Positions 1 through 42,249 of a stretch of DNA of 42,249 nucleotides are shown here, piece after piece (the stretch's first letter is position 1; every line of letters begins with the position of its first letter). The position numbers and the translations under genes were made by a program. The DNA is from a virus: positions 1-42,249 of IMG/VR virus record IMGVR_UViG_3300027896_000085; one strand, 5' to 3'. Below the pieces are notes generated by a model. The model made no database searches. It had not been told where the DNA came from and saw only the letters and a list, made by a program, of their open reading frames with translations.

Positions 1-110
1 ACTACCCCCAGATTCTGGTGGCCGACAACTACCTGCCAGACGATGAAGACTCGGTGGCCCTGAACGAGCTATGGAACAACGGATGGGACACAGAGGTGAG
101 GCCGGAATGA
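1..110 (+). CDS. C-terminal part of small acidic protein (full copy at 41993-42220)
   Basis: This is the 3' end of the gene that is complete at the other end of the window. It is cut only by where the circle was opened. The stop TGA at 108-110 overlaps the next ATG at 107. One residue differs from the full copy (Ile instead of Ser) because of the base difference at position 13. Confidence 0.85.
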   Translation, partial: YPQILVADNYLPDDEDSVALNELWNNGWDTEVRPE

Positions 111-139
111 CCAGGAGCCATTTCGTCAAGAAGTCGGCC
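1..139. repeat. Terminal direct repeat, left copy
   Basis: Bases 1-139 match 42111-42249 except for one base (T at 13, G at 42123). The repeat runs through the end of one gene and the start of the next, so it carries no boundary of its own. The simplest reading is the overlap of a circular or terminally redundant genome, giving a unique length of 42,110 bp. The mismatch changes Ser to Ile in the encoded protein and may be a population variant or sequencing error. Confidence 0.93.
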
Positions 140-16581: not shown

Positions 16582-16594
16582 GCTCCCACAGGAC

Positions 16595-22422: not shown

Positions 22423-22424
22423 CC

Positions 22425-22994: not shown

Positions 22995-23295
22995 TGAACC
23001 ACAGACTCATCGGGACGATAAGGTGTTTGGGCGCATGGTGGAAAGCCCACAGGCCCTCCTGGCTCGGCTAGACGAGCGAACCGAAGCCATGGCTGACGAC
23101 ATATCGGCCTTGAGGAAGGCCATTGACGAGTGCGTCAAACCCAAGCTCGATTCCATGGACAAGCACCTGGGCAGACACGACACAGAGATTGCAGTGCTGA
23201 GGAACAACTGGAAGATAATGGTGGGCCTGACAAGTGCCATCGTGGCATTTGCTACATGGTTCATCGACCACATCTCCGGGAACATCCGAACATGA
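22987..23295 (+). CDS. Coiled-coil protein with C-terminal membrane helix (XhlA-like layout)
   Basis: About 102 residues from a GTG start (22987; 22978 also possible). Residues 20-70 are a charged coiled coil, followed by one hydrophobic helix (MVGLTSAIVAFATWFI) and a short tail. The architecture resembles haemolysin XhlA-type and similar phage membrane proteins linked to lysis. Family membership is not proven. Its site inside the head module is odd for a lysis gene. Confidence 0.55.
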   Translation: MSDEPQTHRDDKVFGRMVESPQALLARLDERTEAMADDISALRKAIDECVKPKLDSMDKHLGRHDTEIAVLRNNWKIMVGLTSAIVAFATWFIDHISGNIRT

Positions 23296-24746
23296 CCGAC
23301 ATAGCTGGCTGGAAGATAACCGCAGACAATCCCAAACTCGTGTGGGACAACAAGGGCCTACATGGGGACTTCATCATCAAGGCGGAGATAGACACCAAGT
23401 CCTTCGATGACGAGAAGATGATTGTCTCTGGTTTCGCCACTGTGGAGGAAGTGGATAAGCAGGGTGACCTGATAACACTCGATGCGTTCAGGAAGGCCGT
23501 GGGCCGTCTGGAAGCCGACAAGGAGACACTGTCTCTGAATTACGGCCACACGAGCGCCAAGATAGGCACCGTCACCAAGATGGTCTTCATGGAGGACTCA
23601 ACCCCACGGAAACTGTGGATAGAGGCCCAACTGAAGCGCAACAGCAAACTCGCCAAGCAAGCGTGGGAGGATGTCAAGAGCCAGAAGCTCAAGGCCTTCT
23701 CCATAGGGGGCATGGCTCTTGTCCCCGGACTCCGCTGGTGTGAAGCCAGTGGGAAGTGCATGAACAAGATTGACGACATCGAATGGTATGAAGTCAGCCT
23801 TGTGGAGGAGCCAGCTAACCAAAAGAGCCTCATAATGGCAATCAAGGGAGCGCTCCCAGACTTTCAACGGACAATGTACTCCAAGGAAGACGGGAAGCTC
23901 ATCAAGGCATCTTGCATGAGTGATTACACCAACTCGGATGGCACCTTCCAAGGTGGGTTCGACGGCTGTGTGAGCGCCATGGAGGACTGCAAAGGACTAC
24001 CCACAGAGAACGCCAAGAAACTCTGTGCGTACATAGGCCGCCAGGCAGGGAAGATTGCTGGCGACATCGATGTAAAGGCCTTGGAGGCCGAGATGATGAA
24101 AGAGGAAGACAATCAGAGAGTCAAGGACTTGGAAGACATCGTCCAGGGACTCGTCATGGTCATGCGTGGGCAACTACTTGGGAAAAACTACCCCAACTTT
24201 GATGCTTGCGTTGCTGACAATCAGGACAAGGAAGACCCAGAAGGGTTCTGTGCCTACCTTGGTCGTGGTGGAAAGGGTGAGACACTCACGCCAATGGAGA
24301 CACTCGACAAGGCGTGTAGCGGGAAGACACGCTTCCCAGCATTTGGTAGGAAGACAAAGAAGGGTGAGACAGTGGAAACGATAACCAAGGAAGACAAACC
24401 GGCTCCCACACCGGCTCCGGCCCCAACGCCAGAGCCTAACAAGGAGCTTGAGGAATTGAGAACCAAGCTATCGGCCATGGAGGCCGAAGCCAAACTGCAA
24501 AGGATGGAGCGCGAGAAGGCCGAGAAGGCCCTCCAGGAGGCCACCAAGAAGGCGGAGACACCACCGGCCCCTGCACCGGCACCGACACCAACGCCCACAC
24601 CGGCTCCACAGATACAAGTCGAACAACCGTCCAGTAAGGGAGAACATCCCGGCGCATCCCCACAGTCCCCTGGACCGGAAATGACCGTCATGGAGCTTGC
24701 GCACAAGCTCAATGACGAAAAGAAACCACTTTCGTGGGGAATGTAA
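23292..24746 (+). CDS. Prohead protease with C-terminal scaffold-like region
   Basis: A 484-residue protein. The N-terminal 190 residues match the HK97 prohead protease fold: SGFATVEEVDKQGDLI (46-61), NYGH with likely catalytic His 86, and FSIGGMA with likely catalytic Ser 137. Then come two copies of a short F-D-x-CV ... CAYIGR/CAYLGR unit (about 222-255 and 298-325), and a C-terminal Pro-rich and coiled-coil region typical of an internal scaffold. It would cleave scaffold and capsid N-termini during head maturation. The major capsid gene follows. Confidence 0.85.
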   Translation: MTDIAGWKITADNPKLVWDNKGLHGDFIIKAEIDTKSFDDEKMIVSGFATVEEVDKQGDLITLDAFRKAVGRLEADKETLSLNYGHTSAKIGTVTKMVFMEDSTPRKLWIEAQLKRNSKLAKQAWEDVKSQKLKAFSIGGMALVPGLRWCEASGKCMNKIDDIEWYEVSLVEEPANQKSLIMAIKGALPDFQRTMYSKEDGKLIKASCMSDYTNSDGTFQGGFDGCVSAMEDCKGLPTENAKKLCAYIGRQAGKIAGDIDVKALEAEMMKEEDNQRVKDLEDIVQGLVMVMRGQLLGKNYPNFDACVADNQDKEDPEGFCAYLGRGGKGETLTPMETLDKACSGKTRFPAFGRKTKKGETVETITKEDKPAPTPAPAPTPEPNKELEELRTKLSAMEAEAKLQRMEREKAEKALQEATKKAETPPAPAPAPTPTPTPAPQIQVEQPSSKGEHPGASPQSPGPEMTVMELAHKLNDEKKPLSWGM

Positions 24747-24762
24747 GACAAGAGGGAGAACA

Positions 24763-25902
24763 ATGGAACTGAATCTAGCGAAGTGGGAACAACTGGCTTA
24801 CGACAGACAGTTGAAGTCCATGGGAGTCCAGGGGCTCAGAATGGCTGACCTCCTGTTGAAGGCCGATGACCCAGTGGTCCAGGCAACCACAGGTGTCTAC
24901 CAGACGCTCTATGGAGCGCGTGTGTACGACAACCTGTACCGCCAAAGCACCTTCTGGCAAGTCACACCCAAGGTAGACTTCACGACTGCCAAGTCAGGAG
25001 TCAGACTGAAGACAGCAGACCCAGCCAACTTCTCGGCCATCACCGAGTCGGCGGCACTGGGAGACACGGACAAGCCCGATGTCATCCAGTACAACATGAC
25101 GCTCAAGCGCGTGAACGCGACATGGGACATCACAGAGATGGCCCAGGCCAAGTCCGTCGCTGAGAACGGCAAGGAAGGCGGAGAGGCACCGTGGATGATG
25201 CAAGCCATGGCCGACTACTTTGTGAGCGCCCTGGACGGCAAGCTGGATGTCCAGAACGGGACACTGGCTGGCAACTTCCCAGAGTCCTATGACCGAATCA
25301 TCGGTTCCAAGGGAGAAGTCGATGGCAACTCCGATGCCGCAGATGCGGCCTACTCGGCCAACGACAATGACTACCTTGGGAACGACAGGGATGCGGCCAC
25401 CACGACTGATGCCCAAGTCGGCCTTGCGGCCGCCAACAGAGCTTTGACCATCAGACTGGTGGAGAACCAGATTCTGGCGGCAGAGAAGAATGGCGCGAAC
25501 AGGAGCAGAATGGTCATCGTCACTGGCTATGACACATTCGCCAACTTCTCGGCGCTCATGTCGTCACAACAGAGGTTTGACGACTACAAGGAGATGACAG
25601 TGGGCGTGAATGGAGTCACCATCTCAGGCAGACCCACTGGCTTCAGGGCGGCCCAATACCAGGGAGTCAGCATACTGCTCGACAAGCAGTGCGTGGCCGA
25701 TGCGTCGGCATCCAGCAGGATGTACGGCATCGACATGGACGGTGTCGAGTTCAGACTGATGAACCCAGTCAGGCATCTCTCAAGCCCAATCGAGAACGCC
25801 ATCCTACATGACGCTTTCGTGGAACGCCACAGCCTTGACCTGGCCGGTGAACTGGTCGCAACCAAGTTTGCCAGCCACTGGAAGCTAAGGGATTTGGCCT
25901 AG
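24763..25902 (+). CDS. Major capsid protein, HK97 fold
   Basis: A 379-residue protein directly after the protease, with a ribosome binding site AGAGGGAG (24751-24758). The size and position, an N-terminal amphipathic helix, a central region with GYDTFANFSALMSS, and a C-terminal HSLDLAGELVATKF agree with HK97-like capsid proteins with phage-typical P- and A-domains. It has no long cleavable delta domain; the first 60 residues are short for one. It would form the icosahedral shell. Confidence 0.82.
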   Translation: MELNLAKWEQLAYDRQLKSMGVQGLRMADLLLKADDPVVQATTGVYQTLYGARVYDNLYRQSTFWQVTPKVDFTTAKSGVRLKTADPANFSAITESAALGDTDKPDVIQYNMTLKRVNATWDITEMAQAKSVAENGKEGGEAPWMMQAMADYFVSALDGKLDVQNGTLAGNFPESYDRIIGSKGEVDGNSDAADAAYSANDNDYLGNDRDAATTTDAQVGLAAANRALTIRLVENQILAAEKNGANRSRMVIVTGYDTFANFSALMSSQQRFDDYKEMTVGVNGVTISGRPTGFRAAQYQGVSILLDKQCVADASASSRMYGIDMDGVEFRLMNPVRHLSSPIENAILHDAFVERHSLDLAGELVATKFASHWKLRDLA

Positions 25903-25935
25903 TTAGGCCCCCACGACTTCCTTGGAGGATGAAGA

Positions 25936-26190
25936 ATGGCGATAACAGCGACCTTCCTTGACTCGTTTGTCATGGGAAACAAGAGGTGTGAGCTTTGGAG
26001 CGTTGTGGGCTCCTCCGACACAGGAGGGACATTCACAGCGGGAGTCATCCCGGATGTCTGCTTCCTTGCGGGGAAGACCACCACGCCGCCTGTGGCCCCC
26101 ACCATCAAGTCCAACCCAGCGACCAGCGTTGTCACGGTGGGCTACACCAGTGGTTCACCAGACTGTCTAGTGCTTGTCATCGGGCACTAG
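25936..26190 (+). CDS. Putative head decoration protein
   Basis: An 84-residue beta-rich protein just after the capsid gene, with a GGAGGATGAAG leader (25924-25934). Composition (Thr, Val, Gly, Ser) and position suggest a small decoration or stabilisation protein. No family signature is seen. Confidence 0.55.
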   Translation: MAITATFLDSFVMGNKRCELWSVVGSSDTGGTFTAGVIPDVCFLAGKTTTPPVAPTIKSNPATSVVTVGYTSGSPDCLVLVIGH

Positions 26191-26194
26191 ACTC

Positions 26195-26208
26195 CAAACC
26201 TTTTTCCA
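26195..26208 (+). promoter_or_regulatory. Intergenic AAACC-CCA motif, copy 4
   Basis: CAAACCTTTTTCCA, identical to 5307-5320, lies in the 45-base gap before the gene at 26236. GTGAGGT (26223-26229) is the ribosome binding site, so the motif is upstream of the translation signals. CATATT follows it. Confidence 0.55.
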
Positions 26209-26235
26209 TATTCCATTTCACCGTGAGGTAACAAC

Positions 26236-26649
26236 ATGGCACAATCGGCAATAGTGAACATCAAAGACGACAGGCCCAGGCACTCGATGGCAGTGGTGAG
26301 GATTGACTGGACGGCAGACGCAGGAGGGGCCTTTGACCAGATACTCGATTGCCCCATGTTCGGTTCCATCACGCACATCTACACCAAGCCCGGAAGCACG
26401 GCCCCCACGGATGCCTCAGACGTGACTCTGAAGGACGACAGTGGGACGGGAGCCGATGTACTGGCGGCCCAAGGGACGGACATTCTCTCGGCCACTCTGG
26501 TCGTCACCAAGCCGATGATGACAGAGGCCACAGTCGGCTCGAACAAGTATGGTGTCAATCCGAGCATCGCCACCATGAGGCCAAGGCTCACCATCTCGAA
26601 CAACGCTGTGGCAAACGCCACTGGAACCATCTGGATATATCTGAGGTAG
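26236..26649 (+). CDS. Putative virion structural protein
   Basis: A 137-residue protein of alternating beta strands rich in Thr, Ala, Ser and Asp, typical of decoration or neck proteins. It begins after a promoter-like gap, suggesting separate or boosted expression of this and the following genes. No specific family is recognised. Confidence 0.6.
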   Translation: MAQSAIVNIKDDRPRHSMAVVRIDWTADAGGAFDQILDCPMFGSITHIYTKPGSTAPTDASDVTLKDDSGTGADVLAAQGTDILSATLVVTKPMMTEATVGSNKYGVNPSIATMRPRLTISNNAVANATGTIWIYLR

Positions 26650-26652
26650 ACC

Positions 26653-26850
26653 ATGGGCCTTTTCAGTCGATTCAAGAGGAAGGCCCCGGTGGAAGTCAGG
26701 TACATCCGGCCCACAGACTATGTCCGTGGGAAGCCGCACTGGTGTGGACGCTGTGGTAAAGGCTTCAACAGCGAACAGGATTACATGGACCACAAGTGCA
26801 ACGGGAGAAGCCTATTGAGGCCCACTGAGGGCATGGAGGCTCTGAAGTAA
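26653..26850 (+). CDS. C2H2 zinc-finger mini-protein in the structural module
   Basis: A 65-residue protein with CGRCGKGFNSEQDYMDHKC (31-49), a finger of the classic C-x2-C ... H type ending in H-x-C. The N-terminus is basic (FSRFKRKAP). It is unusual to find such a finger between virion protein genes. It could be a minor virion part, an assembly factor or a regulator of late genes. The stop overlaps the next start. Confidence 0.65.
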   Translation: MGLFSRFKRKAPVEVRYIRPTDYVRGKPHWCGRCGKGFNSEQDYMDHKCNGRSLLRPTEGMEALK

Positions 26851-27368
26851 TGTCAGCAACAGTCGAATTGTGCGAGTCCAATGGCTCCACAGAGACAATC
26901 ACGCACAATGTCTCTCAGTTCAACATGGGAAACAGCGACACGCCGAACATGACCTACACAAGCTATCCCATACCAGTGGGCTCTTGCGCGTTCAACAAGC
27001 TGTTGAGATACCATGTGACGGGCGGGACTTTCAATGTCTTCAACAACCTTCAGGTCTACTTGTCGAACCTTGGTGGGGGATGGAAGACTGGCGAGTCGAT
27101 GCAGTGTAACCTTAACACCACACAGGGCTCATACGATACCTACAAGGTCACCAGCTTCGCACAGCCGTCCACCACGCCGTACACAGCCTATTCCATGCCA
27201 GAGGCTGACCCAGCAAGCGCGAACCTGGGGATTGGCGGCTCCCTGACTGGGCAACTGACTGGGGCCGGATACTCGGACTACTTCAAAGTCCAGTTGAAGA
27301 CCACTGGCTCTACACCAAGCGGGGACAGCAACCAAAAGACCTTCACATTCCAATATGACGAACAGTAG
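26850..27368 (+). CDS. Putative virion structural protein
   Basis: A 172-residue protein rich in Thr, Ser, Asn, Gly and Tyr, with expected beta structure. Residues 45-60 (SCAFNKLLRYHVTGG) and 100-135 look like surface-exposed jelly-roll-like strands. No domain is assigned. It sits between the zinc-finger gene and the adhesin block, so a decoration or fibre-base role is likely. Confidence 0.6.
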   Translation: MSATVELCESNGSTETITHNVSQFNMGNSDTPNMTYTSYPIPVGSCAFNKLLRYHVTGGTFNVFNNLQVYLSNLGGGWKTGESMQCNLNTTQGSYDTYKVTSFAQPSTTPYTAYSMPEADPASANLGIGGSLTGQLTGAGYSDYFKVQLKTTGSTPSGDSNQKTFTFQYDEQ

Positions 27369-27696
27369 CCCCATGGAGTTTCACGCCTGGCACCTGGTTG
27401 CCACGGACGGTTCTGAGTACTGGGGAGTGGACGACTTCCCCACAGACGGCATGAAGGCCAACTGTGTCCTCTTGGAGCTACAACTCCCCAGGGAGCGTCA
27501 CTGTCATGCCCTAGAAGTGCCGCAGGGGGCCAAGGCGCTCCTAATCAAGCGGAACCAGATAGATTACCAGCTTGGTGTGGGAATCATCGCTAAACGCCAC
27601 TGCTACCTGTTAGGCGTGGAAAACGGGCCCATACAGACGATATGGCCCAAGGAGAAGCTATGGAAGCGCATACTCCATTGGCTAAGATTGCGCTGA
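27355..27696 (+). CDS. Hypothetical protein
   Basis: Up to 113 residues from the ATG at 27355, or 107 from the ATG at 27373; neither has a clear ribosome binding site. The sequence appears alpha/beta with several Cys/His (HCHALEV, KRHCYLLG) and a basic C-terminus. It overlaps its neighbours at both ends. Confidence 0.5.
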   Translation: MTNSSPMEFHAWHLVATDGSEYWGVDDFPTDGMKANCVLLELQLPRERHCHALEVPQGAKALLIKRNQIDYQLGVGIIAKRHCYLLGVENGPIQTIWPKEKLWKRILHWLRLR

Positions 27697-27935
27697 CGCG
27701 CACAGGCCAGTGTACGCGCTGTGGGCTCTGTTGCGGAGGGTGTGGCTTCTACAAGGCTCCCGACTGTACGATTTACGACATCAGGGGACAAGGATGTCGC
27801 AACTTCCCGCCACATCCGTATGAACGGCTCCCCACTTGCGGCTTCCACTTCCTGGGCCCTGACGGCAAGGAAGTCCTTGGCTACAAAGACCACTCGACAC
27901 TGGAGCGCTATGCTCCCGTACAGGAGAATGACTGA
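27660..27935 (+). CDS. YkgJ-like Cys-cluster protein
   Basis: A 91-residue protein. AAGGAGA (27648-27654) precedes the ATG at 27660. CTRCGLCCGGC (16-26) followed by further Cys and a P-x-x-P-x-x-R-x-P-x-C motif resembles the YkgJ (UPF0153) CxxCxxCC family, which is thought to bind iron or zinc. Its function in a virus is unknown. It is a strange neighbour for adhesin genes. Confidence 0.6.
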   Translation: MEAHTPLAKIALTRTGQCTRCGLCCGGCGFYKAPDCTIYDIRGQGCRNFPPHPYERLPTCGFHFLGPDGKEVLGYKDHSTLERYAPVQEND

Positions 27936-29152
27936 TGCCATCGAAACTGTACTTCACCACCGCCACTCCTGGCTCCGTCAAGCCTAGCGCCAGGCAGAGT
28001 ACCAAGGCGATTCAGCACTGGATTCCAGACACCAATGGTGGGGGCCAGGATGGGGCAAGTTCATTCTACCCATGTTCGTTCTCCGCAGTCCCTGGAAGTT
28101 CCACACAGACCGACACCTCAAGTTACACAGAGCCGGGAGCCGCCCACCAGGGTTGGGTCAAAGCCTTTGTGTCGCTTCCACTGGCCGCCCAGACCTTCAA
28201 TCCTGGGACGGCATGGTTCATTGTCGATTGGTTGGAGGGCAACGGCCAGCAAAATATGTTCGTGTCTGCCTTCGCCTACATCTGGAAGGGAGACAACAGT
28301 GGCATACGCGGCATCCTGTTCGGGACAGCCGCCGCGCCATGGGTAGACACGACAACGGAGATTCACACAACGCTCGGCACTTTGCAGTCCACTGGAAATG
28401 CCACCGTGTCCAGTGTTTCCATCTCAGACGGGGATGTACTCGTTGTGGAATTGATGTGGAACGACAACAACACCAAGACAACGTCCTACACACACACTGT
28501 CACCTACAATGGAGTCCTCTCTGGCAACTATGAGGCCAACATCAACTTCGGCACTTCGCTCACTTTCAAGTCCACCACCACATCGCTGACCAAGACCTCC
28601 CAGGCAAGGTTCAAGACCAATCCCTCACTCACAAAGACCAGCCAGTCACGGTTCTGGGCACAAGGACTCTCCCAGACCAAGACCAGTCAATCCCGGTTCT
28701 TGAAACCGGGCATCACTCAGACACTGACCGAACAGAGCCGGTTCGTCAAGACCTACTCGCCCACACTGACGACACTGGAACGGTTCTTGGCTACACTGGG
28801 GCCGACTCTGACCTCCATGGCGACCTTCACCTCTGGTGGGCCGGTCACTCAGTCAAAGACACTCAACTCACAGGCTCGGTTCTTGGCGAACCTGGCCGTC
28901 ACGCTTAACAGTCAGAGCAGATTCAAGACCAATCCCAGCCAAGCCTTGGGAAGCCAGGCAAGGTTCCTCAAGACATTCGGCCTCACGGAGACAAGCCTGG
29001 CTCGTTTCCTCTACACAGGAGCGCCCACACTCAACTCCTTGGCGCGGTACAAGACCAATCCCGGCCCGACACTGACCTGCATGGCCCGGTTCGGGACAGA
29101 GACTGGAACGCCAGGGCAAACCCTACCAGAATGGCTCAAGGTGAACACATGA
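27935..29152 (+). CDS. Fibre/adhesin-like protein with 14-residue RF repeats
   Basis: A 405-residue protein. Residues 1-215 form a beta-rich domain. Residues 216-390 consist of about twelve tandem units of 14-15 residues with consensus S-(Q/L)-x-RF-(K/L)-x-x-x-(G/P)-x-(T/S)-x-T; RF/RY pairs fall at 225, 239, 254, 269, 283, 315, 329, 343, 357, 371 and 385. Such a regular repeat suggests a beta-solenoid or fibrous shaft. It is probably a virion fibre contacting the host. It starts in a TGATG overlap and ends in the next gene's start. Confidence 0.65.
   Translation: MPSKLYFTTATPGSVKPSARQSTKAIQHWIPDTNGGGQDGASSFYPCSFSAVPGSSTQTDTSSYTEPGAAHQGWVKAFVSLPLAAQTFNPGTAWFIVDWLEGNGQQNMFVSAFAYIWKGDNSGIRGILFGTAAAPWVDTTTEIHTTLGTLQSTGNATVSSVSISDGDVLVVELMWNDNNTKTTSYTHTVTYNGVLSGNYEANINFGTSLTFKSTTTSLTKTSQARFKTNPSLTKTSQSRFWAQGLSQTKTSQSRFLKPGITQTLTEQSRFVKTYSPTLTTLERFLATLGPTLTSMATFTSGGPVTQSKTLNSQARFLANLAVTLNSQSRFKTNPSQALGSQARFLKTFGLTETSLARFLYTGAPTLNSLARYKTNPGPTLTCMARFGTETGTPGQTLPEWLKVNT
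28598..29096 (+). repeat. Tandem 42-45 base repeat encoding the RF units
   Basis: The DNA of the repeat region shows recurrent segments such as CAGGCAAGGTTC and AAGACCAATCCC (28614-28622, 28924-28936, 29049-29061). Sequence divergence between units indicates an old expansion, with some units still nearly identical at the DNA level. Confidence 0.6.
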
Positions 29153-30576
29153 CACAGACACCGACAATCGAAGGGGAAGACCCAAACCAGATTCCACTCT
29201 GGGTACAAGGAGCGCCAGCCCAAGCGGCCAACCTCATGCGCATCACGGACTCAGACGGCAACATCAAGTTTGCCATCGACAAGGACGGGAACATGACCGG
29301 CTCCTTGGCGCAACCACTCCAGTACATCACGGCATACGACACGCTCCAGGCGGCTGTGGACGCTCTCCCGGCCCAGCACTTCATCACTGGCGGGGATGCT
29401 GGCCTTCCAGAGGATGGAAGGATTACTGGTGGTGGAGTCCTGTATATCCCCACTGGCATCCATGAGGTCAGCCACTGTGATTGGAACAAGCCATACTCCT
29501 CCCTCATTGGGGCCAACTGGAAGGGTACACAACTCAACTTTATGAACGCTGATGGGACCAGCGCCTTCACCTTCCATCCAGAGTCACCCAATCTGTACCT
29601 TCACGCCTACTTGGTCTTCAGGGACTTCTCGGCCATTGGCAGACTGGCGCATGAAATCGACCATGACACCGGACAGTGGATTTACACAGACCATAATGGA
29701 TACGCGATTAGCACTGGAGACTTCTTCACCACCACGTCCAGTTCATACTACACATTCGACCACCTGAACATCAACAGCTTTGGTGGGCGAGGCATCCAGA
29801 TTGACGGGACGCCCTATGCCTGTATCTATGGGAGAATCAACAACAGTCGCATCCTGTACTGCAAGGACGGCATCAGGATGATTAACGACTGTCGCGTGTG
29901 GGGAATCAACGACACCAGCGTCTTCACAGGCCACCGTCTTCTCGATGAGTTTGACGCTCCCAACTTCGACCATGGGGTTCAACTGGCCTCTTGTTACACA
30001 GTCGATATGAATGGAGGGAGCATCGAAGGGCCACTGTCTGGCATGGGCCAAGCAGGGTGCCACTCGTGTGATGTCGATGGGACATACTTCGAGCAGATAG
30101 AATACGGCATCGGCTGTGGGAACAACACCATAGCCTCCAGGTTCACAAACATCTTCATGTACGCCAGCTACTATCCAATCTCTGTGGGCGACGGTATTCA
30201 CTCCTGTACCTTCAAGGACATTGAGGTACAAGGCAACTATGGTGGTCAGAATGATTCCCTGCTCCTGTCTGGACCCATGGACGGGTGTGTGGCCGACAAC
30301 ATAACGGTTCGAGACACCAACGAGCCCTCCCTGAATCACCACTGGAACGATGTGGGCATCACCACCCCGCCCAAGTACTGGGAACACACGATTGGCGGCC
30401 AGGGAGCCATACCAGGCCTGATGTTCGGCACTCCCGGCGTAAGCGTCAAGACCACCACAGGAGCGCCCACAGATGCCGTGTACGGCTCCCAGGTGGGGAA
30501 GATGGTCTACAACTCATTCGACAAGGTGATGTGGGTTCACGGCCCAGACGGAACGAATGACTGGGATGTGGTCTGA
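29149..30576 (+). CDS. Beta-helix tailspike-like protein
   Basis: A 475-residue protein. The first 55 residues (MTQTPTIEGEDPNQIPLWV ... DSDGNIKFAIDKDGN) are a module shared with the protein at 30884. The rest shows features of a right-handed parallel beta-helix: GGGVLYIPTGIHEV early on, then many short strands with N/D/G turns (GRGIQIDGT, HGVQLASC, NTIASRFTNI). That is typical of pectate-lyase-like tailspikes that bind or cut surface polysaccharide. No catalytic site can be named. It is probably a receptor-binding spike. Confidence 0.72.
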   Translation: MTQTPTIEGEDPNQIPLWVQGAPAQAANLMRITDSDGNIKFAIDKDGNMTGSLAQPLQYITAYDTLQAAVDALPAQHFITGGDAGLPEDGRITGGGVLYIPTGIHEVSHCDWNKPYSSLIGANWKGTQLNFMNADGTSAFTFHPESPNLYLHAYLVFRDFSAIGRLAHEIDHDTGQWIYTDHNGYAISTGDFFTTTSSSYYTFDHLNINSFGGRGIQIDGTPYACIYGRINNSRILYCKDGIRMINDCRVWGINDTSVFTGHRLLDEFDAPNFDHGVQLASCYTVDMNGGSIEGPLSGMGQAGCHSCDVDGTYFEQIEYGIGCGNNTIASRFTNIFMYASYYPISVGDGIHSCTFKDIEVQGNYGGQNDSLLLSGPMDGCVADNITVRDTNEPSLNHHWNDVGITTPPKYWEHTIGGQGAIPGLMFGTPGVSVKTTTGAPTDAVYGSQVGKMVYNSFDKVMWVHGPDGTNDWDVV

Positions 30577-30887
30577 TGGTGGCGAACACGGATGAGGGTT
30601 ACAAGATAATGTGCCCCCACTGTAAGGGCCCCATCAAACATCTGGAGCCTGGTGGAGTAGTCGGCCATGGCCGAGACAAGTATCACACCGACTGTTACAG
30701 GGAGAAGATGAGGCGCTTTGAGGCCGCCATTGATGGGAAGGTCGTGAGGGATGCGGTCATCGACCAAAGGCTCAACGAGAAGACGGCCCAGACGATGAAG
30801 CGACAACTGATGGCTACACCCCCATGGGAACGCCCAGTCAAACTCAAGGAGTACCAACAGTGGATGACTCCAAGGCAGGTGGCATGA
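30576..30887 (+). CDS. LIM-like zinc-finger protein between spike genes
   Basis: A 103-residue protein that starts in a TGATG overlap. CPHCKGPI (13-20) and HTDCY (37-41) form a short LIM-type zinc site. The remainder is helical and basic. It lies between the two genes that share a spike N-terminal module. It may be an assembly factor for the spikes or an unrelated insertion. Confidence 0.6.
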   Translation: MVANTDEGYKIMCPHCKGPIKHLEPGGVVGHGRDKYHTDCYREKMRRFEAAIDGKVVRDAVIDQRLNEKTAQTMKRQLMATPPWERPVKLKEYQQWMTPRQVA

Positions 30888-31501
30888 TGACACAAACACC
30901 GACAGTGGAGGGAGAAGACCCAAACCAAGTACCACTCCTAGTCAGGGCGGCTCCGGGCCAGGCGGCCTATGTCGCCGCCATGCAGGACTCCGAAGGCAAC
31001 ATTGTCTTCGCAATCGACGCTCAAGGGAATGTCTATTCCACCAGCACCGTCACGCTTGTCGGAAGTGGCGTGTCCCCGTATTTCACATGGGACTCCAAGG
31101 AATCCGAACCATACCCTTCCACACCGGCAATCGGCACGGATTTCTCATACCAACTTCCCGCTGGCTTCCGGTATCGCCTTGAGAGCTTCAACTGGGAGCT
31201 TGAGACATCCGCGACAGTGGCCGACAGGCACACCAGCTTCCAGATATTCCATGGGACAAGGATGATAATGCAATTCCCACAGGGCCTCTTTTCGGTTCAA
31301 CAGGCCGGGCAAGACAACTTCTATGCCTGTTCCCTTGGGATGCCCTACATGGATGGCTCCAATCTGAAGGAGCGCTTCACCATGTTGCCGTACAAGTTGG
31401 ACCTGGCCGCAGGATTGACGCTAAAGACCGTCACCACAGACCTTCAATCGAATGACCAAGTGGACGATGTGGGATGGTTGCTGAGGAAGGTGCCTTTGTG
31501 A
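30884..31501 (+). CDS. Second spike protein with shared N-terminal module
   Basis: A 205-residue protein started by ATGA. Residues 2-55 (MTQTPTVEGEDPNQVPLLV ... DSEGNIVFAIDAQGN) closely match the N-terminus of the 29149 protein. The C-terminal domain is beta-sandwich-like and unrelated to the beta-helix. The shared part is probably what attaches each protein to the virion, with the C-terminal domains providing different binding functions. Confidence 0.65.
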   Translation: MMTQTPTVEGEDPNQVPLLVRAAPGQAAYVAAMQDSEGNIVFAIDAQGNVYSTSTVTLVGSGVSPYFTWDSKESEPYPSTPAIGTDFSYQLPAGFRYRLESFNWELETSATVADRHTSFQIFHGTRMIMQFPQGLFSVQQAGQDNFYACSLGMPYMDGSNLKERFTMLPYKLDLAAGLTLKTVTTDLQSNDQVDDVGWLLRKVPL

Positions 31502-31959
31502 ACATGGAATCGTGGGATGCCATAGACACACAGGCCGCACCGACTTATGCGCCCGGAGGTGGTGGGAACAACCAGCTCCCAAGGGGCAAGAAGTCTATGC
31601 TCCAGTGGCTATCCATAACGCTTGTGACCGGCAACTTCAACGGAAACAGACACCTGTACTGGCCCTTCAAATCTTTCATGTGGGACCCACCAGACAGAAC
31701 CACCAAGATTGCCATACAGACCAAGAGCAAAACGAATGTCTACTTCTGGGGCATCGGGATGCCGTACAGTGATTCGCAGGACTGGTCTTTCAGGACATTC
31801 CCAATCCCGGACCAGATGGAGATGAACGCGGAGTTGCTGTACGCTCTCCCAGGCTTTGACCCACACGCGGATTCGTGGGTGAACATCGTGGGCATAGTCT
31901 GGCCCACCGACCAATTCTATGTCGATTGGTGCTACAAGGTAACGGACGTGAACGAATGA
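31498..31959 (+). CDS. Putative virion protein
   Basis: A 153-residue protein from GTG 31498 (GTGA overlap) or ATG 31504. It is beta-rich with many aromatics (LYWPFKSFMW, VYFWGIGMPY). Its final domain has the same flavour as the C-terminal domain of the preceding spike protein (Trp-rich beta strands and a GMPY motif in both), so the two may be distant relatives. The specific function is unknown. Confidence 0.55.
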   Translation: MNMESWDAIDTQAAPTYAPGGGGNNQLPRGKKSMLQWLSITLVTGNFNGNRHLYWPFKSFMWDPPDRTTKIAIQTKSKTNVYFWGIGMPYSDSQDWSFRTFPIPDQMEMNAELLYALPGFDPHADSWVNIVGIVWPTDQFYVDWCYKVTDVNE

Positions 31960-32951
31960 CGACACTCGATTTGAATGGCACGACACACACGATAGGCGTG
32001 GACTCCAAGGAAACCTACTGGCAGATAGAGGACACATCCCCTGCTCACAACGGCCATCTGGTCCTGGAATCCGGGGCCTACCTCCAGTGGGAAGACCTGG
32101 ATGAAGCAGGATTCACGGCTTCCTGTTCGGACATCACAGTCACGGTCAATGGAGAGGCCGACAGCCCGGCCTACATGAGGTGCGTGGACCTGTTCCCGCA
32201 TCACCCATGGAACCTTCCGCCAGTCACGGCGCACATGGTAGCCACGCGCTGTCACTTCATGGGGGACAAGGGCGAATGGTCGCCCAGTTGGATAGACAAC
32301 CACTGCACATGGGGCGGGGAAGGCTACTGTACGGTGAACGATGTTCGGGCGCTGACTGGGATTACCAGTCAAGGAGCCGCAGGAGTCAGTGACTACCGCA
32401 TCGAGTTGTTCATCAAGAACGCCAGTGACTACATTGACGAGAACACTGGGCGCGTGTGGGACAACCGGGAAGCCCTGAATGAGATACACGACTATGACGG
32501 CAGGGAGTACATCCGGCTCGACCACTGGCCCATCATCGAGCTAGACACAGTGGAGTTCAGGACGGGCTCCAACCCTTCGACTTGGGAGGTCCAGACGATA
32601 GGCCCTGAGAACGATTACGTGGCCCTAGCCACTGAGTTGGGGCAAGGCCTGGTTCATCTTGTGGATGTCCCGGCATACATCCTAGAAGCCATCAGAGTGT
32701 CCTATACATACGGTGCCGATGAGACACCGTACAAGATAAGGCGCATGGCGATGCTCATAGCCTCCATCGACACCTACAAGGCCGCTACCAGTCCGGGCAC
32801 CACCAACATCTACTCCAACGACATCAAGAGCCTCCAGGATGAAGTCGCCAAGTACAATCTCTCCATTGGGGGCCAAATGGGCATCTATGTGGGGAAGCTC
32901 CCATACGACAAGTACACCAAGGGAACCAGGTGGGAGAGACTGTGGCAATAG
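31956..32951 (+). CDS. Head-tail connector-like protein with N-terminal extension
   Basis: A 331-residue protein. The C-terminal 220 residues begin with CTVNDVRALTGI and continue with DYIDENTGRVW, a layout like gp6/gp15-type head-tail connectors. The first 110 residues are an added Cys/His-containing beta domain that includes RCHFMG and NHCTWGG and may bind a metal. It is predicted to sit beneath the portal. The start is an ATGA overlap. Confidence 0.6.
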   Translation: MTTLDLNGTTHTIGVDSKETYWQIEDTSPAHNGHLVLESGAYLQWEDLDEAGFTASCSDITVTVNGEADSPAYMRCVDLFPHHPWNLPPVTAHMVATRCHFMGDKGEWSPSWIDNHCTWGGEGYCTVNDVRALTGITSQGAAGVSDYRIELFIKNASDYIDENTGRVWDNREALNEIHDYDGREYIRLDHWPIIELDTVEFRTGSNPSTWEVQTIGPENDYVALATELGQGLVHLVDVPAYILEAIRVSYTYGADETPYKIRRMAMLIASIDTYKAATSPGTTNIYSNDIKSLQDEVAKYNLSIGGQMGIYVGKLPYDKYTKGTRWERLWQ

Positions 32952-33364: not shown

Positions 33365-34321
33365 ATGGCAAGTTACACAACGGGCCAAATCAAGAGACTG
33401 TACTATGTGGACGAGTCAGTGTACGCCACGACACCGGCAAGCGCCTTGGGGTACAGTGGAGAGATAGCCGGATTCAAGATGGACTGCAACTTCAACCCTG
33501 AACTGGTCTACCTGGCCGGGATGAGGAGTTTCCAAGCGTCGTACAGGGGCCCATACGATGTTGGCTTCACCTACAAGGCCATCTGTCGCATCTATGATGC
33601 TGGGAAGGGCGCTTGGAACTGGACGGACTTCTGGGCCAAGTACGGCATGGGACTGACCACTGGGATGAGTCTGACGGACTCCCTACCTACCTTCTCGGCC
33701 TTGACTGGGAAGACAGTGGGCGCGAACAACTACTACAACCTGTGGAACGGCTGTAAGGCCAACAAGCTCTCCATATCGTGCGACAAGCCCGGAACAGCGA
33801 TACAGTGGGAGATGGACTGCCTGGCCCAGATGGTCGAGTGGGACACGGACAAGACCTTCATCGGGCTCCAATCGGTCACTGTGGGAGCCGACCCAACACC
33901 GCCCACAAGCGCCATCCTGGCCTGGAAGGGCAATCTCCGCATCGACCTTGGAGCAGGGCTCACGACCATCTACCCAAGCAAGTTTGCTCTGGAGGTCAAT
34001 CACAATCTCCGCCGAGACTATGGCATCGTGACTGGGAATGACACCATCAACTATCCTGTCGCCACATGGCTCCAGGAAGACAAAGCAGAGGTCACGCTCG
34101 ACATGACGCTCCCACACGGAACAGAGACATTCAACGCCGCCAAGAAGGATGGGACGGCTGTGCTGTCGGCAACGATTCCACTGGGCAACAAGACGCTCAC
34201 GCTCTATGGCGGAGTGTTCGACGCCAGTGACTTCCCGGACTACACACAGGCGGCCATGGAGGAGTCGGTCAAGATTCACTTTGGCGGGACATCGCCCAAT
34301 GCGGCAATCGTCCTGGCCTAA
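33365..34321 (+). CDS. Major tail tube protein
   Basis: A 318-residue protein. It lies after the connector genes and before the assembly chaperone, with a beta-rich sequence. TIPLGNKTLTLYGGVFD and a C-terminal MEESVKIHFGG resemble TP901-1/SPP1-type tail tube proteins, which stack as hexamer rings. No contractile sheath gene was seen, so the virion is probably siphovirus-like with a non-contractile tail. Confidence 0.68.
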   Translation: MASYTTGQIKRLYYVDESVYATTPASALGYSGEIAGFKMDCNFNPELVYLAGMRSFQASYRGPYDVGFTYKAICRIYDAGKGAWNWTDFWAKYGMGLTTGMSLTDSLPTFSALTGKTVGANNYYNLWNGCKANKLSISCDKPGTAIQWEMDCLAQMVEWDTDKTFIGLQSVTVGADPTPPTSAILAWKGNLRIDLGAGLTTIYPSKFALEVNHNLRRDYGIVTGNDTINYPVATWLQEDKAEVTLDMTLPHGTETFNAAKKDGTAVLSATIPLGNKTLTLYGGVFDASDFPDYTQAAMEESVKIHFGGTSPNAAIVLA

Positions 34322-34388: not shown

Positions 34389-35021
34389 ATGGAAACGCCA
34401 TGGATAGAGTATGACGGTGGAGCGCCGAACATCGACCTGAAGGACAGAGTCCCCATAAAGGACTTGCTGGCCGACCACAGGAAGCAGTGGACGCTGAAGA
34501 CACATCTTGGAACGCTCATCCTCAAGCGGCTCACCAGAGTCTCCATGGAACAGGTCGCAATCCGCCTGGCCCAGAAGAATGAGGAGTACATGAAACTCGG
34601 TGAGGCCAAGGCTCCTCTGTGGGAGAAGATACAAGCCGGTGGGGAGCTTACGCCAGAGGAGTTTCAAGAGGCCGCCGACATCGCTTCCAAGATGGCCCCA
34701 TTCATCATGGAGTTTAGCCTTCCATGCTTTGTGGAGCCGACACTCAACAACATAGAGGAGTATGACGCGCTCATCTCCCACCTCCATCCAGACGAACAGA
34801 CGGCCCTCAAGAACCTCATCGCCGAGCTAGTCAAGCCCGGCGATGTCAAGTCTGTGGGGAATGGAGCCCTCACCATCGCCAAGGAGTTCAATGTCCCATT
34901 GGCCTCAGACCTGACCATGGAGAACATGACGGCCAAGCAGTATGCCGCGCTCCAAGGGACTCTTGAGGAACAAGCCAGGCAAGTCGAACAGGAGCTAAAG
35001 AAGGTTGCTAAACCTCAGTGA
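34389..35021 (+). CDS. Probable tail assembly chaperone
   Basis: A 210-residue, helical, acidic protein between the tail tube and the tape-measure-like genes, the standard place for tail assembly chaperones. AGGTGA (34378-34383) is its ribosome binding site; the GTG at 34380 is an alternative. The region near the stop overlaps the next frame by 17 bases, where a programmed +1 shift is possible, as many tail chaperone genes use frameshifting. Confidence 0.6.
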   Translation: METPWIEYDGGAPNIDLKDRVPIKDLLADHRKQWTLKTHLGTLILKRLTRVSMEQVAIRLAQKNEEYMKLGEAKAPLWEKIQAGGELTPEEFQEAADIASKMAPFIMEFSLPCFVEPTLNNIEEYDALISHLHPDEQTALKNLIAELVKPGDVKSVGNGALTIAKEFNVPLASDLTMENMTAKQYAALQGTLEEQARQVEQELKKVAKPQ

Positions 35022-35547
35022 CGACATCGAGTGGACTTTCACAATGGACGAGTCCGTCAGTGGGCAGATGAAGAGCGCAAGCTCTCAAGCCGCTGTAACC
35101 ATCGGAGGGACTGGCTACGCCATGGGTCACGCCACCACGGGCATCATAGCGTTGAAGGGGAAGTTTCGGCCAGAGGGAGGCATCATCCGACTGTTCCATA
35201 CGCTCCATGTCATAGGTGTGGAGTCGGATTCAGCCCGGAAGGTCACAATCCAGTTGGCGGCAGTCATGGGGGCTCTGTACGGGGCTCTGATGCTCCTCAG
35301 TGGAGTACAAGCCGTCTTCAAGGCCAGGGCCGCTTACTTGACGCTGGTGGCCGCCGCAGAGACAACAATCAAAGCCGCCACGCTCCAGTGGCATATGATA
35401 ATCATGGCCGTCATTGGGACAGCCGCTGTCTATGTCGGCCTCCAACTAGGCTCTGGGGCCTGGAAACTCCCCAGTGTCAATCTCAACAATCACCATGACT
35501 CCCAGAAGGCCGTCAAGGCCGGGATGTCTCAAGCCACAGGAGGCTAA
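35005..35547 (+). CDS. Short tape-measure-like membrane protein, paralogue A
   Basis: A 180-residue protein from a TTG start at 35005, or made by frameshift from the chaperone gene. The N-terminus has DIEWTFTMDESVSGQM; the middle has RLFHTLHVIGVESD followed by hydrophobic helices (LAAVMGALYGALMLLSG, HMIIMAVIGTAAVYVGL). The next protein shares these landmarks. Tape measures set tail length and often contain such hydrophobic helices, but this is far shorter than usual. Confidence 0.55.
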   Translation: MLNLSDDIEWTFTMDESVSGQMKSASSQAAVTIGGTGYAMGHATTGIIALKGKFRPEGGIIRLFHTLHVIGVESDSARKVTIQLAAVMGALYGALMLLSGVQAVFKARAAYLTLVAAAETTIKAATLQWHMIIMAVIGTAAVYVGLQLGSGAWKLPSVNLNNHHDSQKAVKAGMSQATGG

Positions 35548-35549
35548 CC

Positions 35550-36125
35550 ATGGATGCCGCCGACATACAGTACAACTTCTATGTGAACGACCAGATGACA
35601 GGACAACTGGCGAACATTCAAGCTTCCAGTGAACAACTCAGGGCCTCCACAGAGCAGACCGGGAATGCCGCCCAAGCGACCACCATCAAGTTCATGGGGG
35701 AGTTGATGGCCGTCATGGCCCTGTACTCCGGCTTCAGAAGGCTCACCATGTCTCTCCACACACTGGGCCTCATGTCCGACCAAAACTACCAGACCATGAT
35801 GAAGTTTGCCGCCGCCATCGGACTGGTGGTGTCGGTCTTCCAGATGGTCAAGGGAGTCACCATGCTCATCAGGAGCCTCAGAGAGGCCGAGATTGGGCTG
35901 GCTCTCGTGGAGACTTACAGAGCCATCCTCAACAATCCGGCCAAGCTCGGCCTAGCCATCGCGGGAGTGGCCGCCGCAGGTGTCGCTGTTGGTGCCCTTG
36001 CTGGAATGGCGATGGGCGGTGGAGGGAAGACCACGGTGACCCAGAATGTCTCCTTTGGTGGTTACGCATCGCCCCAGGCACAGAGAGACACCGCAAGGAC
36101 GACCATGGAGTACGCCAGTGGGTAA
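35550..36125 (+). CDS. Short tape-measure-like membrane protein, paralogue B
   Basis: A 191-residue protein with a good ribosome binding site (CAGGAGG, 35538-35544). It parallels the preceding protein: DIQYNFYVNDQMTGQL at the start, RLTMSLHTLGLMSD in the middle, then FAAAIGLVVSVFQMVKG and a Gly/Ala-rich helix IAGVAAAGVAVGALAG. The C-terminus is Gly-rich and polar. A duplication followed by divergence explains the pair. Two such short proteins may together replace one long tape measure. Confidence 0.58.
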   Translation: MDAADIQYNFYVNDQMTGQLANIQASSEQLRASTEQTGNAAQATTIKFMGELMAVMALYSGFRRLTMSLHTLGLMSDQNYQTMMKFAAAIGLVVSVFQMVKGVTMLIRSLREAEIGLALVETYRAILNNPAKLGLAIAGVAAAGVAVGALAGMAMGGGGKTTVTQNVSFGGYASPQAQRDTARTTMEYASG

Positions 36126-36137: not shown

Positions 36138-36974
36138 ATGACAGTCACATGGAACCAATGCACAAAGACCGGCTCTTGGGCAGACCCAACGGTGTGGAAC
36201 CAGGGCCATGTCCCGACAGTCGATGAAGGAGTCAAGGTTACAGGCAACTTCATAGTGGCCGCCACCGCTGGGAGTTTCCCATTCAGATACATCGACATCG
36301 ATGGTGGGACGCTCAACATCTCATACAATGCCGCCATGCAGGGGAAGGACTTGGCGGTGGACCCGGCAGACCACACACCGGCTTGGCACATCCGCGTCAG
36401 GAACACGGCCAACTCAAAGCTGACTGGCTACCAGACCTACAACGGCTGGTCCCAACTGGGGAGCATAGAAAACAACCCCATCAACCGGCTCAACTTCATG
36501 GTGGAGACTCCGAGCGCCACCAGCCCGATAATCGACTGGATGGAGGAGTCCACGGCCCAGCGCTGGTTCACCCTTGTCCCGTCCCATGTATCGACCTTCC
36601 TGGGGAATGACTCGACATGGGTGTGGTTCAACCAGAAGGGGAGCGCACTGCCCTTCCCCAAGAGCCTGTACCTGACTTCAGTGTCCCATCCAGACCGGAC
36701 TCCCATCATCGTCACACACACGATAGAGGACAGGATTGGGGACAAGGTCTACAAGAACGGGGAACACAGCGGCACGGTTCAACTCGATGGAGTCTTCCAG
36801 ATGACAGGAAGGCCCGATGTGGACCTCAAGGTTCTCCGGGACACCAACAACCTCTTGGCGTTCATCAGTCCGTATGTGACGCTAAACAGGTGCTATGTGG
36901 ACTCCCTAAAGTTCAAGCCCGGCCCTGGAAGCTCCTGGGTTCAGTTCACCATGACGCTCATTGAGGTCATCTGA
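36138..36974 (+). CDS. Distal tail-like protein
   Basis: A 278-residue beta-rich protein following the tape-measure-like pair. The N-terminus (CTKTGSWADPTVWNQG) recalls a surface-type W-x-x-P-x-x-W-x-x-G repeat. The C-terminal YVTLNRCYVDSLKF ... FTMTLIEVI resembles the end of phage distal tail proteins. It probably forms part of the tail tip. It overlaps the next gene by one base (TGATG). Confidence 0.55.
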   Translation: MTVTWNQCTKTGSWADPTVWNQGHVPTVDEGVKVTGNFIVAATAGSFPFRYIDIDGGTLNISYNAAMQGKDLAVDPADHTPAWHIRVRNTANSKLTGYQTYNGWSQLGSIENNPINRLNFMVETPSATSPIIDWMEESTAQRWFTLVPSHVSTFLGNDSTWVWFNQKGSALPFPKSLYLTSVSHPDRTPIIVTHTIEDRIGDKVYKNGEHSGTVQLDGVFQMTGRPDVDLKVLRDTNNLLAFISPYVTLNRCYVDSLKFKPGPGSSWVQFTMTLIEVI

Positions 36975-39262
36975 TGACTGGCTACCAACTGACCATCTAC
37001 AAGCCCGGTGGCGGGATTCTGAGCATCCACTCCATGGGCCGGATGGTGGAAAACTCCCGACTCCTTGACTGGACCGAGAACCAGACGGCTTCCTTGTCCT
37101 TCTCACTCGCCAATCGAGAAGGTGGGGCAAGCAACTTCCTGGACTCCACATTCAACCTATGGGAGGGAGGCTCGTACACTGGAGCCCTCCAACTGGGGAT
37201 GCGTGTGTACTACCGGATTGTGTCCTCTGTGGACGGCTCTTGGTACGATGCCTTCTGGGGGACGATAACCGACATGAGCCAGGGCACGGACGGTGTCCTC
37301 AATGTCACCTGCTCCGACGACATGGCGAAGATGGAAGCCATCTCAGTCGCCAAGACCATCTTCAACAACTATGTGGACGACAGTGGACAGTACAGGGACT
37401 CCTCTGGTGGCGTGTATCGCTTTGGAGCCAGTGGACTACCTGGTGACATCGTCTGGCCTCCCGTACAAATCCTGAACGGCAACAACGACATAGAGGCCCT
37501 TGGGACGCCCATCAATATGTGGTCCACGCCGAACAGCAACACTGGGACGGAATGGAATGGCGTCGGGCACAAGGTCTGTCAGGCGGTGGCTCCCCACGAC
37601 ATCATTGGAAGCGTCAGACTTCACTACAAGGCGGGAGGTTCCAACACAGCCGATGTTCGACTCAGCATCCAAAGCGATTCCAGTGGCTATCCCAGTGGAA
37701 CGATTGTAGGCAATTTGTCTGTAACTGTCGCCACCATCAATACCGGTGTTTGGCGCACCAATGTGTATGGCTTCACCAGTGGCTCCTGTACCAAACTCGA
37801 CAGGGCCCAACGGTACTGGATTGTGGTCGAGCCAGTGGGCGACACTTCAGTCTGTGATGTCCAGTTTGGGTGTGATGACGGCAACTCGTACACCTATCCA
37901 GACCACCAGTACTATGACGGCTCCTGGCACAGCGTCACTGGGACTTGCCTCTTGGCTGATGTGTACTATGTCGATTACGACACTGTCACTCCATCGACCA
38001 CATACTACTCTGGTGGCTACATCTATATGCCGAGCATCACGAGTCCATGCGCGGATGCTGGCGGGGCCTACAACGCCCAGTGTCGGTATTCGGCCTACCG
38101 TGGGACAATCACACTGGAAGACATCGCCACCAACCTCATCGGCCTTGCCGGATTTGTGGGGTATGCTTCTCCCAACTGTGACCGAACCTTCGGCCTGTAC
38201 CGGACAAGGGGCCGTTCCATAGCAGAGTGTCTCCGGGAGATTGCTGACGTGTTCGAGACAAGTGGCCCGTACAGTGGCTCCCAACACGCCATCAGTGTCT
38301 ACTGGGATGGGAGCGCCCCACGGTGCTATTTCCTCAGACGATTGAACCTGAACGACACCAGTGTCCTGACCTTCCAACATCCCAAGGACGGCTCCACCAA
38401 CAATGTCATCATGTCTGTGGACCTCCGCAAGATGGTCAAGATGCGACCCAGTGGAGTCATCGTGACCGGACAATCGGGAGATAACAAGCCGCTAGTCAGG
38501 GGTTATGATGACCGGAGCCTGGGAGCGTCCAGCTTCAGGACGAACAGTGGAATCCCACTGACCTACACAGAGTATGATGAGAGCCTGACCACCATGGCCG
38601 AAGTGGACGCCAGGGCCTCCACGCGGATGAAGTCGTTTAAGCGGGATACCTGGGAGGGCCGGATTACACTGTCCGGTGTGTACCCCGAATTGAGGGACTT
38701 TGGGACGGGCGACATGGGAACGCATGGTTCTGGGCAGATATTCACGCTGTACTGGAGTCCACTGGGAATCTCCAATCAGAAGTTCAAGGTCAAAGGACTC
38801 CGCTTCACGAAGTACACCACAGAGGTTCAAGTCACGAACAACGACACCCTTATGGACAACAAGCTGACCAAGGGGATGTCCACAGCGTACAAGAGTGAAT
38901 CCTTCCTGACGCCCGATGACCCGGCCACAGACCTGGTGTTCACCTGCTATGAGGATTCTGTACCGGCCTACACGACGGGCATGACCATGACGCTCAACAA
39001 GGCCGCTGGGCCAGCTTGGCTTGACGGGCTCAACTGGGTTCCATGTACGGTCTTCATCGACACTGACCTCAACCAGAGGGTCTACCATGCCGAGTTTGAG
39101 ATGAACAACGGATACACCACTGGGAGCGACAGAGTGGTTTCCATCTCCCTCTGGCATGGATGGCCTGTGGAAACGAACAGGTACACCCTCACGACAGCAG
39201 AGCAATTCCCGAAGTGGACGACAACAAGGGTCATCGTTGAGTACCGCACCAAGAACGCCTAG
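36974..39262 (+). CDS. Large tail-tip protein with carbohydrate-binding-like insert
   Basis: A 762-residue protein, the last gene of the late operon. The N-terminus (WTENQTASLSFSLANREGG) resembles baseplate hub proteins. Residues about 190-330 form a Cys-containing beta domain (SVRLHYKAGG, VRLSIQSDSSGYPSG, YWIVVEPVG) resembling the lectin-like 'choice-of-anchor' or surface-protein domains. A hub-like tail continues to the C-terminus. It is thus a probable tail tip with an embedded host-binding domain. A hairpin follows its stop. Confidence 0.6.
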   Translation: MTGYQLTIYKPGGGILSIHSMGRMVENSRLLDWTENQTASLSFSLANREGGASNFLDSTFNLWEGGSYTGALQLGMRVYYRIVSSVDGSWYDAFWGTITDMSQGTDGVLNVTCSDDMAKMEAISVAKTIFNNYVDDSGQYRDSSGGVYRFGASGLPGDIVWPPVQILNGNNDIEALGTPINMWSTPNSNTGTEWNGVGHKVCQAVAPHDIIGSVRLHYKAGGSNTADVRLSIQSDSSGYPSGTIVGNLSVTVATINTGVWRTNVYGFTSGSCTKLDRAQRYWIVVEPVGDTSVCDVQFGCDDGNSYTYPDHQYYDGSWHSVTGTCLLADVYYVDYDTVTPSTTYYSGGYIYMPSITSPCADAGGAYNAQCRYSAYRGTITLEDIATNLIGLAGFVGYASPNCDRTFGLYRTRGRSIAECLREIADVFETSGPYSGSQHAISVYWDGSAPRCYFLRRLNLNDTSVLTFQHPKDGSTNNVIMSVDLRKMVKMRPSGVIVTGQSGDNKPLVRGYDDRSLGASSFRTNSGIPLTYTEYDESLTTMAEVDARASTRMKSFKRDTWEGRITLSGVYPELRDFGTGDMGTHGSGQIFTLYWSPLGISNQKFKVKGLRFTKYTTEVQVTNNDTLMDNKLTKGMSTAYKSESFLTPDDPATDLVFTCYEDSVPAYTTGMTMTLNKAAGPAWLDGLNWVPCTVFIDTDLNQRVYHAEFEMNNGYTTGSDRVVSISLWHGWPVETNRYTLTTAEQFPKWTTTRVIVEYRTKNA

Positions 39263-41996: not shown

Positions 41997-42220
41997 AGCC
42001 AGTGTCCTTCATCGTAACCATCTCCAATGAGGACAGCCCAGACCTCACGGAGACACAGACCAAACTCCTGGAAGGCGTTGTGGAGAAGTGGCTGGGCGAA
42101 CATGGGAGGGACTACCCCCAGAGTCTGGTGGCCGACAACTACCTGCCAGACGATGAAGACTCGGTGGCCCTGAACGAGCTATGGAACAACGGATGGGACA
42201 CAGAGGTGAGGCCGGAATGA
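41993..42220 (+). CDS. Small acidic hypothetical protein (complete copy)
   Basis: A 75-residue protein from the ATG at 41993, which overlaps the upstream stop; a GTG at 41984 is in frame. It has a beta start (VSFIVTISNED), a helix and an acidic end. Its last part is duplicated at 1-110. The function is unknown. Confidence 0.6.
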   Translation: MKPVSFIVTISNEDSPDLTETQTKLLEGVVEKWLGEHGRDYPQSLVADNYLPDDEDSVALNELWNNGWDTEVRPE

Positions 42221-42249
42221 CCAGGAGCCATTTCGTCAAGAAGTCGGCC
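42111..42249. repeat. Terminal direct repeat, right copy
   Basis: This copy matches 1-139 except at 42123 (G instead of T). It shows that the genome closes on itself. Confidence 0.93.
42217..42249 (+). CDS. Start of the acidic coiled-coil gene (full copy at 107-733)
   Basis: The first eleven codons of the gene annotated at 107-733, cut by the end of the window. Confidence 0.85.
   Translation, partial: MTRSHFVKKSA

Follow-up and report, generated by a model that had tools for sequence, protein, structure and literature searches.

Two short paralogous proteins occupy the tape-measure position in the genome of an uncultured tailed virus

Results

Genome and structural genes

The window analysed here is the complete IMG/VR record IMGVR_UViG_3300027896_000085, 42,249 bases of an uncultured virus. 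Because both ends of the record carry the same exact direct repeat of 126 bases (Table 1), the 42,110-base genome is circular or terminally redundant and essentially complete. All identified structural genes lie on the + strand. They follow one another from TerL through a portal-MuF fusion, encoded in a single ORF, to the head and tail genes. Just upstream of TerL are genes for a radical-SAM-like protein and for a phrog_3271 protein of unknown function, and a ParB-like partition/nuclease protein is also encoded.

Table 1. Features of the window and the basis of their assignment. Coordinates refer to the whole 42,249-base stretch.
Feature	Position	Strand	Size	Basis or remarks
Terminal direct repeat, left copy	14..139	+	126 b	exact; repeat unit 42,110 b
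Terminal direct repeat, right copy	42124-42249		126 b	exact
ParB-like partition/nuclease protein	12831-13466			phrog_620, E 8.7e-39
phrog_3271 protein	14169-15272
Radical-SAM-like protein	15100-16581			PF04055, E 8.5e-4 (below cut-off)
TerL	16547-17959	+
Portal-MuF fusion	19675-22422	+	915 aa	portal about 253-801; MuF (Mu gpF-like, minor head) about 805-912
Neck1-type protein	22383-22994	+
Prohead protease	23130-24746	+
MCP	24697-25902	+
Repeat-containing protein	27935-29152		405 aa
Virion-type protein, first	29131-30576
Virion-type protein, second	30824-31501
Virion-type protein, third	31474-31959
Head-tail adaptor	31956-32951 (about)	+		phrog_442, E 1.3e-10
Tail tube protein	33365..34321	+	318 aa	PF18906, E 5.2e-15; phrog_290, E 6.2e-10
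Putative tail assembly chaperone	34389..35021	+	210 aa	position only; no significant family match; overlaps P1 start
P1, predicted short tape-measure paralogue	35005..35547	+	180 aa	homology to P2, position
P2, predicted short tape-measure paralogue	35550..36125	+	191 aa	position, C-terminal motif
P2 C-terminal G-rich/beta motif, AMGGGGKTTVTQNVSFGG	36009..36062	+	residues 154-171	profile of 21 relatives' tape-measure proteins
Probable distal-tail / baseplate-tail connector protein	36138..36974	+	278 aa	position, sequence character; no family match
Probable large tail-tip / hub protein	36974..39262	+	762 aa	position; sub-threshold choice-of-anchor R match

In tblastn searches of phage records, the only matches to the MCP came from haloarchaeal Druskaviridae and from vir519, a Methanofastidiosa virus, and the portal matched haloarchaeal viruses only. 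An MCP-profile search of IMG/VR returned several hundred distant relatives at about 30% identity, the closest at about 36%. The relationships of these proteins suggest an archaeal host for the lineage. Druskaviridae (HVTV-1, HCTV-1, HCTV-5) have homologues of the MCP, portal and adaptor in the same gene order, but they carry a single tape-measure protein (TMP) of 480-620 aa in genomes of about 102 kb, compared with 42 kb here. Hallmark proteins are too distant to place the virus in this family by close relatedness (about 24% identity for the MCP, 21-23% over about 30% of the length for the portal), and the genome is 42 kb. An 8.9-kb contig, IMGVR_UViG_3300003852_000210, encodes TerL and the N-terminal part of the portal, both 100% identical to those described here, and to judge from these regions it represents this virus or one almost identical to it.

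Tail genes and the tape-measure slot

Two short ORFs, P1 and P2, are situated between the tube and chaperone-like genes on one side and the distal-tail and hub genes on the other, that is, in the TMP slot. The preliminary description placed here ORFs of about 180 and 191 residues, and they are present at the coordinates given there, with 180 and 191 aa. The chaperone and distal proteins flanking the slot are assigned by position. In the comparison set (HVTV-1, HCTV-5, L011, L012 and L031, the L numbers denoting relatives), the order of tube, chaperone-like ORF, TMP slot, distal and hub genes matches that of HVTV-1/HCTV-5, L012 and L031, in which the TMP measures 177-620 aa.

P1 starts with TTG, with AGGAG at 34990-34994, and P2 with ATG, with AGGAGG at 35538-35543. 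Expression of P1 by frameshifting from the chaperone-like gene was considered and rejected, because P1 is in the +1/-2 frame, which a -1 slip would miss, and is preceded by an AGGAG and begun by a start codon of its own.

A longer TMP encoded elsewhere had been named as the observation that would contradict two short ones. No candidate was found when ORFs of at least 240 aa were listed anew on the joined circle of this essentially complete genome. In those still unassigned in this class (266, 366, 367, 405, 481 and 493 aa), hydrophobic segments do not occur in pairs, and several of these ORFs have matches in other families.

The profile of the tube family also gives a weak match to the P74-26 tube protein gp93 (E 0.27). 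A two-domain (trimeric-ring) tube, prompted by this match and by the length of the tube protein, was not supported when the protein was tested for internal repeats (P 0.055 over 27 columns), and is kept as a possibility.

P1 and P2 are related to each other

The Smith-Waterman score between P1 and P2 is 104, and none of 3000 composition-preserving block shuffles scored as high (mean 39.1, s.d. 7.1, maximum 84). The alignment score exceeds chance, and the two proteins are paralogues. Pairwise BLASTP (E 5e-9) and tblastn against the own genome (E 4.5e-7) also detect the pair; BLAST fails to do so under some score settings, and direct alignment is the better evidence. Shared blocks are DI-E/Q-W/Y-x-F, GQ(M/L), TG, FR, RL-x3-LH-x-(I/L)-G-(V/L), SD, AA and GV. 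The N-terminal and RL-x3-LH blocks reported in the preliminary description are thus real. Each protein has two hydrophobic segments, which begin near residues 80 and 131 (P1) or 82 and 133 (P2). Among the ORFs of this genome only P1 and P2 have two strong segments of this kind; TMPs of relatives have 1-9.

Spacing is also maintained. The region bounded by the DI and TAA blocks measures about 133 residues in P1 and 136 in P2, a difference of about 3 over about 135, and the indels of the alignment (-3, -8, +6 and +2 among others) largely compensate one another, although their values depend on the alignment. Residues 35-60 of P1 are Pro/Gly-rich, and the same stretch of P2 looks helical. AlphaFold2 models built from two-sequence alignments present both proteins as helical in matching C-terminal regions, at mean pLDDT values (44.4 and 35.4) too poor for comparison.

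Similarity to known tape-measure proteins

Neither protein has a significant match to curated TMP models in Pfam, PHROGs or NCBIfam. As the PHROG TMP families do match the TMPs of other members of the group (HCTV-5, HFTV1, L011, L014, L031 and L066), P1 and P2 are at the least very diverged. A match to a curated family does not, in itself, define TMP function.

To characterize the C-terminus, a profile was made from the last 62 residues of the TMPs of 21 relatives, with the window sequence excluded. Among 368 ORFs of the window, P2 ranks first (E 0.012), and the next ORF follows at E 2.1. The matching segment, AMGGGGKTTVTQNVSFGG, aligns to a consensus of the type GGGxTTVNINVSG. When P2 was block-shuffled, none of the 1759 scored sequences reached this match (best 8.2 compared with 10.5 bits). 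The beta motif is absent from P1, with a profile score of 0.0. Since, by eye, the TMPs of L008, L011 and L018 are also without it, the motif does not seem to be required of a TMP.

Comparison of the N-terminal 115 residues of P2 gave z 3.65 with the 177-aa slot protein of L012 (4/1000 shuffles) and z 3.35 with the 610-aa TMP-slot protein of vir519 (6/1000 shuffles), and these two slot proteins align with each other at z 5.7 (1/1000 shuffles). The best PHROG of the L012 protein is a TMP family (E 0.019), and the vir519 protein reaches the TMP family of the HVTV-1 type (E 0.004). With a profile of this N-terminal module built without window sequences, P2 again ranks first, with a best-domain E of only 0.045, and P1 gives no match; likewise, P1 shows no alignment to the L012 or vir519 protein. 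Each N-terminal link between P2 and TMPs is weak, and all of them point in the same direction. A search with a profile of P1, P2 and the L012 protein found no match among solved structures.

According to these comparisons P2 is very probably a TMP, and P1 may be assigned as one by its homology to P2 and by its position. Two short paralogous TMPs in place of one long protein, as originally proposed, is accordingly the best reading of the slot position and of the TMP features of P2.

Discussion

Short tape measures in other systems

Tailed viruses of microbes usually set the length of the tail with one long protein. Very short TMPs already exist, and the preliminary suggestion that a new way of setting length might operate here is therefore unneeded. 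In the gene transfer agent of Rhodobacter capsulatus (RcGTA), g11 comprises 113 helical, 83 beta/loop and 20 helical residues (about 216), and the tail is built of five tube hexamers (PMC7296036). The likeness lies in the very short TMP, in the short tail, which is a prediction in our case, and in the succession of a helix and, towards the hub, a beta region, as P2 would also have it. G11 differs in being bacterial and in forming a homotrimer from one gene.

Equally short is the L012 slot protein, with 177 aa from a single gene and the weak similarity to the P2 N-terminal module described above. The L012/L027 loci (11945-12478 and 19952-27880 of IMGVR_UViG_3300044799_000031) also include proteins that, by eye, look like RadA and like a B-family polymerase, which suggest an archaeal host. 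The vir519 protein (vir519_00030, BK063666) resembles P2 in the same module and in the slot it occupies, although it, too, is the product of a single gene and has 610 aa; P1 itself matches neither of the two directly. TMPs of such length lead naturally to the prediction of a short tail, which is probable for this virus.

The archaeal siphovirus HFTV1 provides a structural reference. Its gp40 (341 aa) forms a hexameric coiled coil across 11 tube rings, in which alternating subunits end either as hub-docked helices or as folded-back beta strands, converting sixfold to threefold symmetry at the trimeric hub (PMC12494034). Gp40 is similar to P1 and P2 in its gene slot, in a helical character that for P1 and P2 is a low-confidence prediction, and in its origin in a tailed virus of archaea, the host group suggested for this lineage; it is different in length, in spanning 11 rings and in deriving both conformations from one gene.

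Proposed arrangement of P1 and P2

On balance, we favour P1 and P2 as duplicated short TMPs, both occupying the lumen of what would be a short, non-contractile tail and most likely lying side by side, for instance as three copies of each. For virion location, length control, oligomeric state and ejection we infer the following course. One ancestral short TMP gene would have been duplicated to give both proteins. A bundle of P1 and P2 coated by the chaperone would serve as the template on which tube rings stack up, starting at the tip. During ejection both proteins would be expelled before the DNA, and their hydrophobic helices might help to form a conduit through the membrane. In HFTV1 the six TMP copies adopt two C-terminal conformations to fit a threefold hub, and two paralogues could divide this job: P2 would keep the beta-type, docking-type end and P1 would have lost it.

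A stricter form of this proposal, in which P1 and P2 make an obligate hetero-oligomeric ruler (e.g. three P1 alternating with three P2) and the switching roles of HFTV1 are split between duplicated genes, is tentative. The same caution holds for its corollary, that such an oligomer might be a genetically encoded answer to the mismatch between sixfold tube and threefold tail tip.

In HFTV1, 315 residues cover 11 rings, a ratio of about 29 helical residues to each ring, from which tail length can be approximated. With a likely helical span of about 140 residues in P2, parallel proteins would correspond to about 5 rings (20-30 nm), and proteins joined end to end to about 10.

Alternative explanations

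It is possible, though rather unlikely, that P2 alone is the tape measure and that P1 is a diverged paralogue with another role in the tail, such as a plug, a spacer between TMP and DNA, or a partner of the chaperone. Absence of the C-terminal motif, the helix-breaking Pro/Gly stretch, the lack of direct similarity to other TMPs and the overlap with the end of the chaperone-like gene would all fit P1 in such a role. They are countered by the nearly identical length of the two proteins, the same order of blocks and the hydrophobic segments at 80/131 in one and 82/133 in the other.

Somewhat less probable again is a serial arrangement in which P2 at the hub and P1 nearer to the head are stacked end to end and act as one TMP of 371 residues. 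This sum is close to the single TMPs of L031 (376 aa) and HFTV1 (gp40, 341 aa), the hub-end motif is found in P2 only, and in HFTV1 a small additional protein acts as a spacer that separates the TMP from the DNA (PMC12494034). Against it, P1 and P2 carry the same N-terminal block and a matched spacing of blocks, as expected of parallel parts. This compensated spacing, about 3 residues over about 135, favours the parallel arrangement, as does the analogy to HFTV1. Moreover, we know of no serial TMP pair.

That P1 and P2 are membrane-active, holin-like or entry proteins of a tail devoid of a TMP, as two hydrophobic segments in each and the lack of a significant TMP family match might indicate, is highly improbable given the tail-tube gene, their location in the canonical TMP slot, the TMP C-terminal motif on P2 and the weak similarity of P2 to other TMPs.

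A tandem pair and what it may offer

The relatives compared that have a TMP in view carry one slot protein per virus, whose length runs from 177 aa (L012) over 314 (L011) and 376 (L031) up to 620 aa (HCTV-1). In none of them do two neighbouring ORFs each bear at least two hydrophobic segments, as they do in the genome studied here. The 376-aa TMP of L031 was also considered as a fusion of P1 and P2, and this was rejected, as its sequence reads as having a single N-terminal block and a single C-terminal motif. The unusual element is thus the tandem of sister genes and not the short length of the TMP. A search for adjacent paralogues, in which 111 sequences were all compared with one another, missed P1/P2 itself and so says little about rarity, for which the comparison of hydrophobic segments is the better guide.

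No description of paired, split or duplicated tape measures was found in full-text literature, mostly outside subscription papers. Single-protein searches of IMG/VR revealed no relatives of P2 or of the 278-aa and 762-aa proteins, tblastn of P1, P2, the tube and the 278-aa protein gave no hits in phage records, and a close relative carrying the pair, as evidence of its conservation, was not found.

The arrangement of TMP copies in a tail, and the matching of a sixfold tube to a threefold tip, are known from very few structures. If our proposal is true, two distinguishable short TMPs would allow copy number, register and division of labour to be read by proteomics and cryo-EM, and an archaeal-like lineage would contribute a very short ruler. 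If the locus holds merely one short TMP and a diverged copy, it would represent a modest variation on the RcGTA case.

Other virion-type proteins

Between the MCP and adaptor genes, three adjoining virion-type proteins are pairwise similar in an all-against-all comparison. The first and second share an N-terminal segment of 52 aa that is 63% identical and includes TQTPT(I/V)EGEDPNQ(I/V)PL; it is apparently an attachment domain common to both, to which differing distal domains are joined. The 405-aa protein encoded before them has no informative family match, and its second half consists of a run of repeats of the SQARF/SQSRF type.
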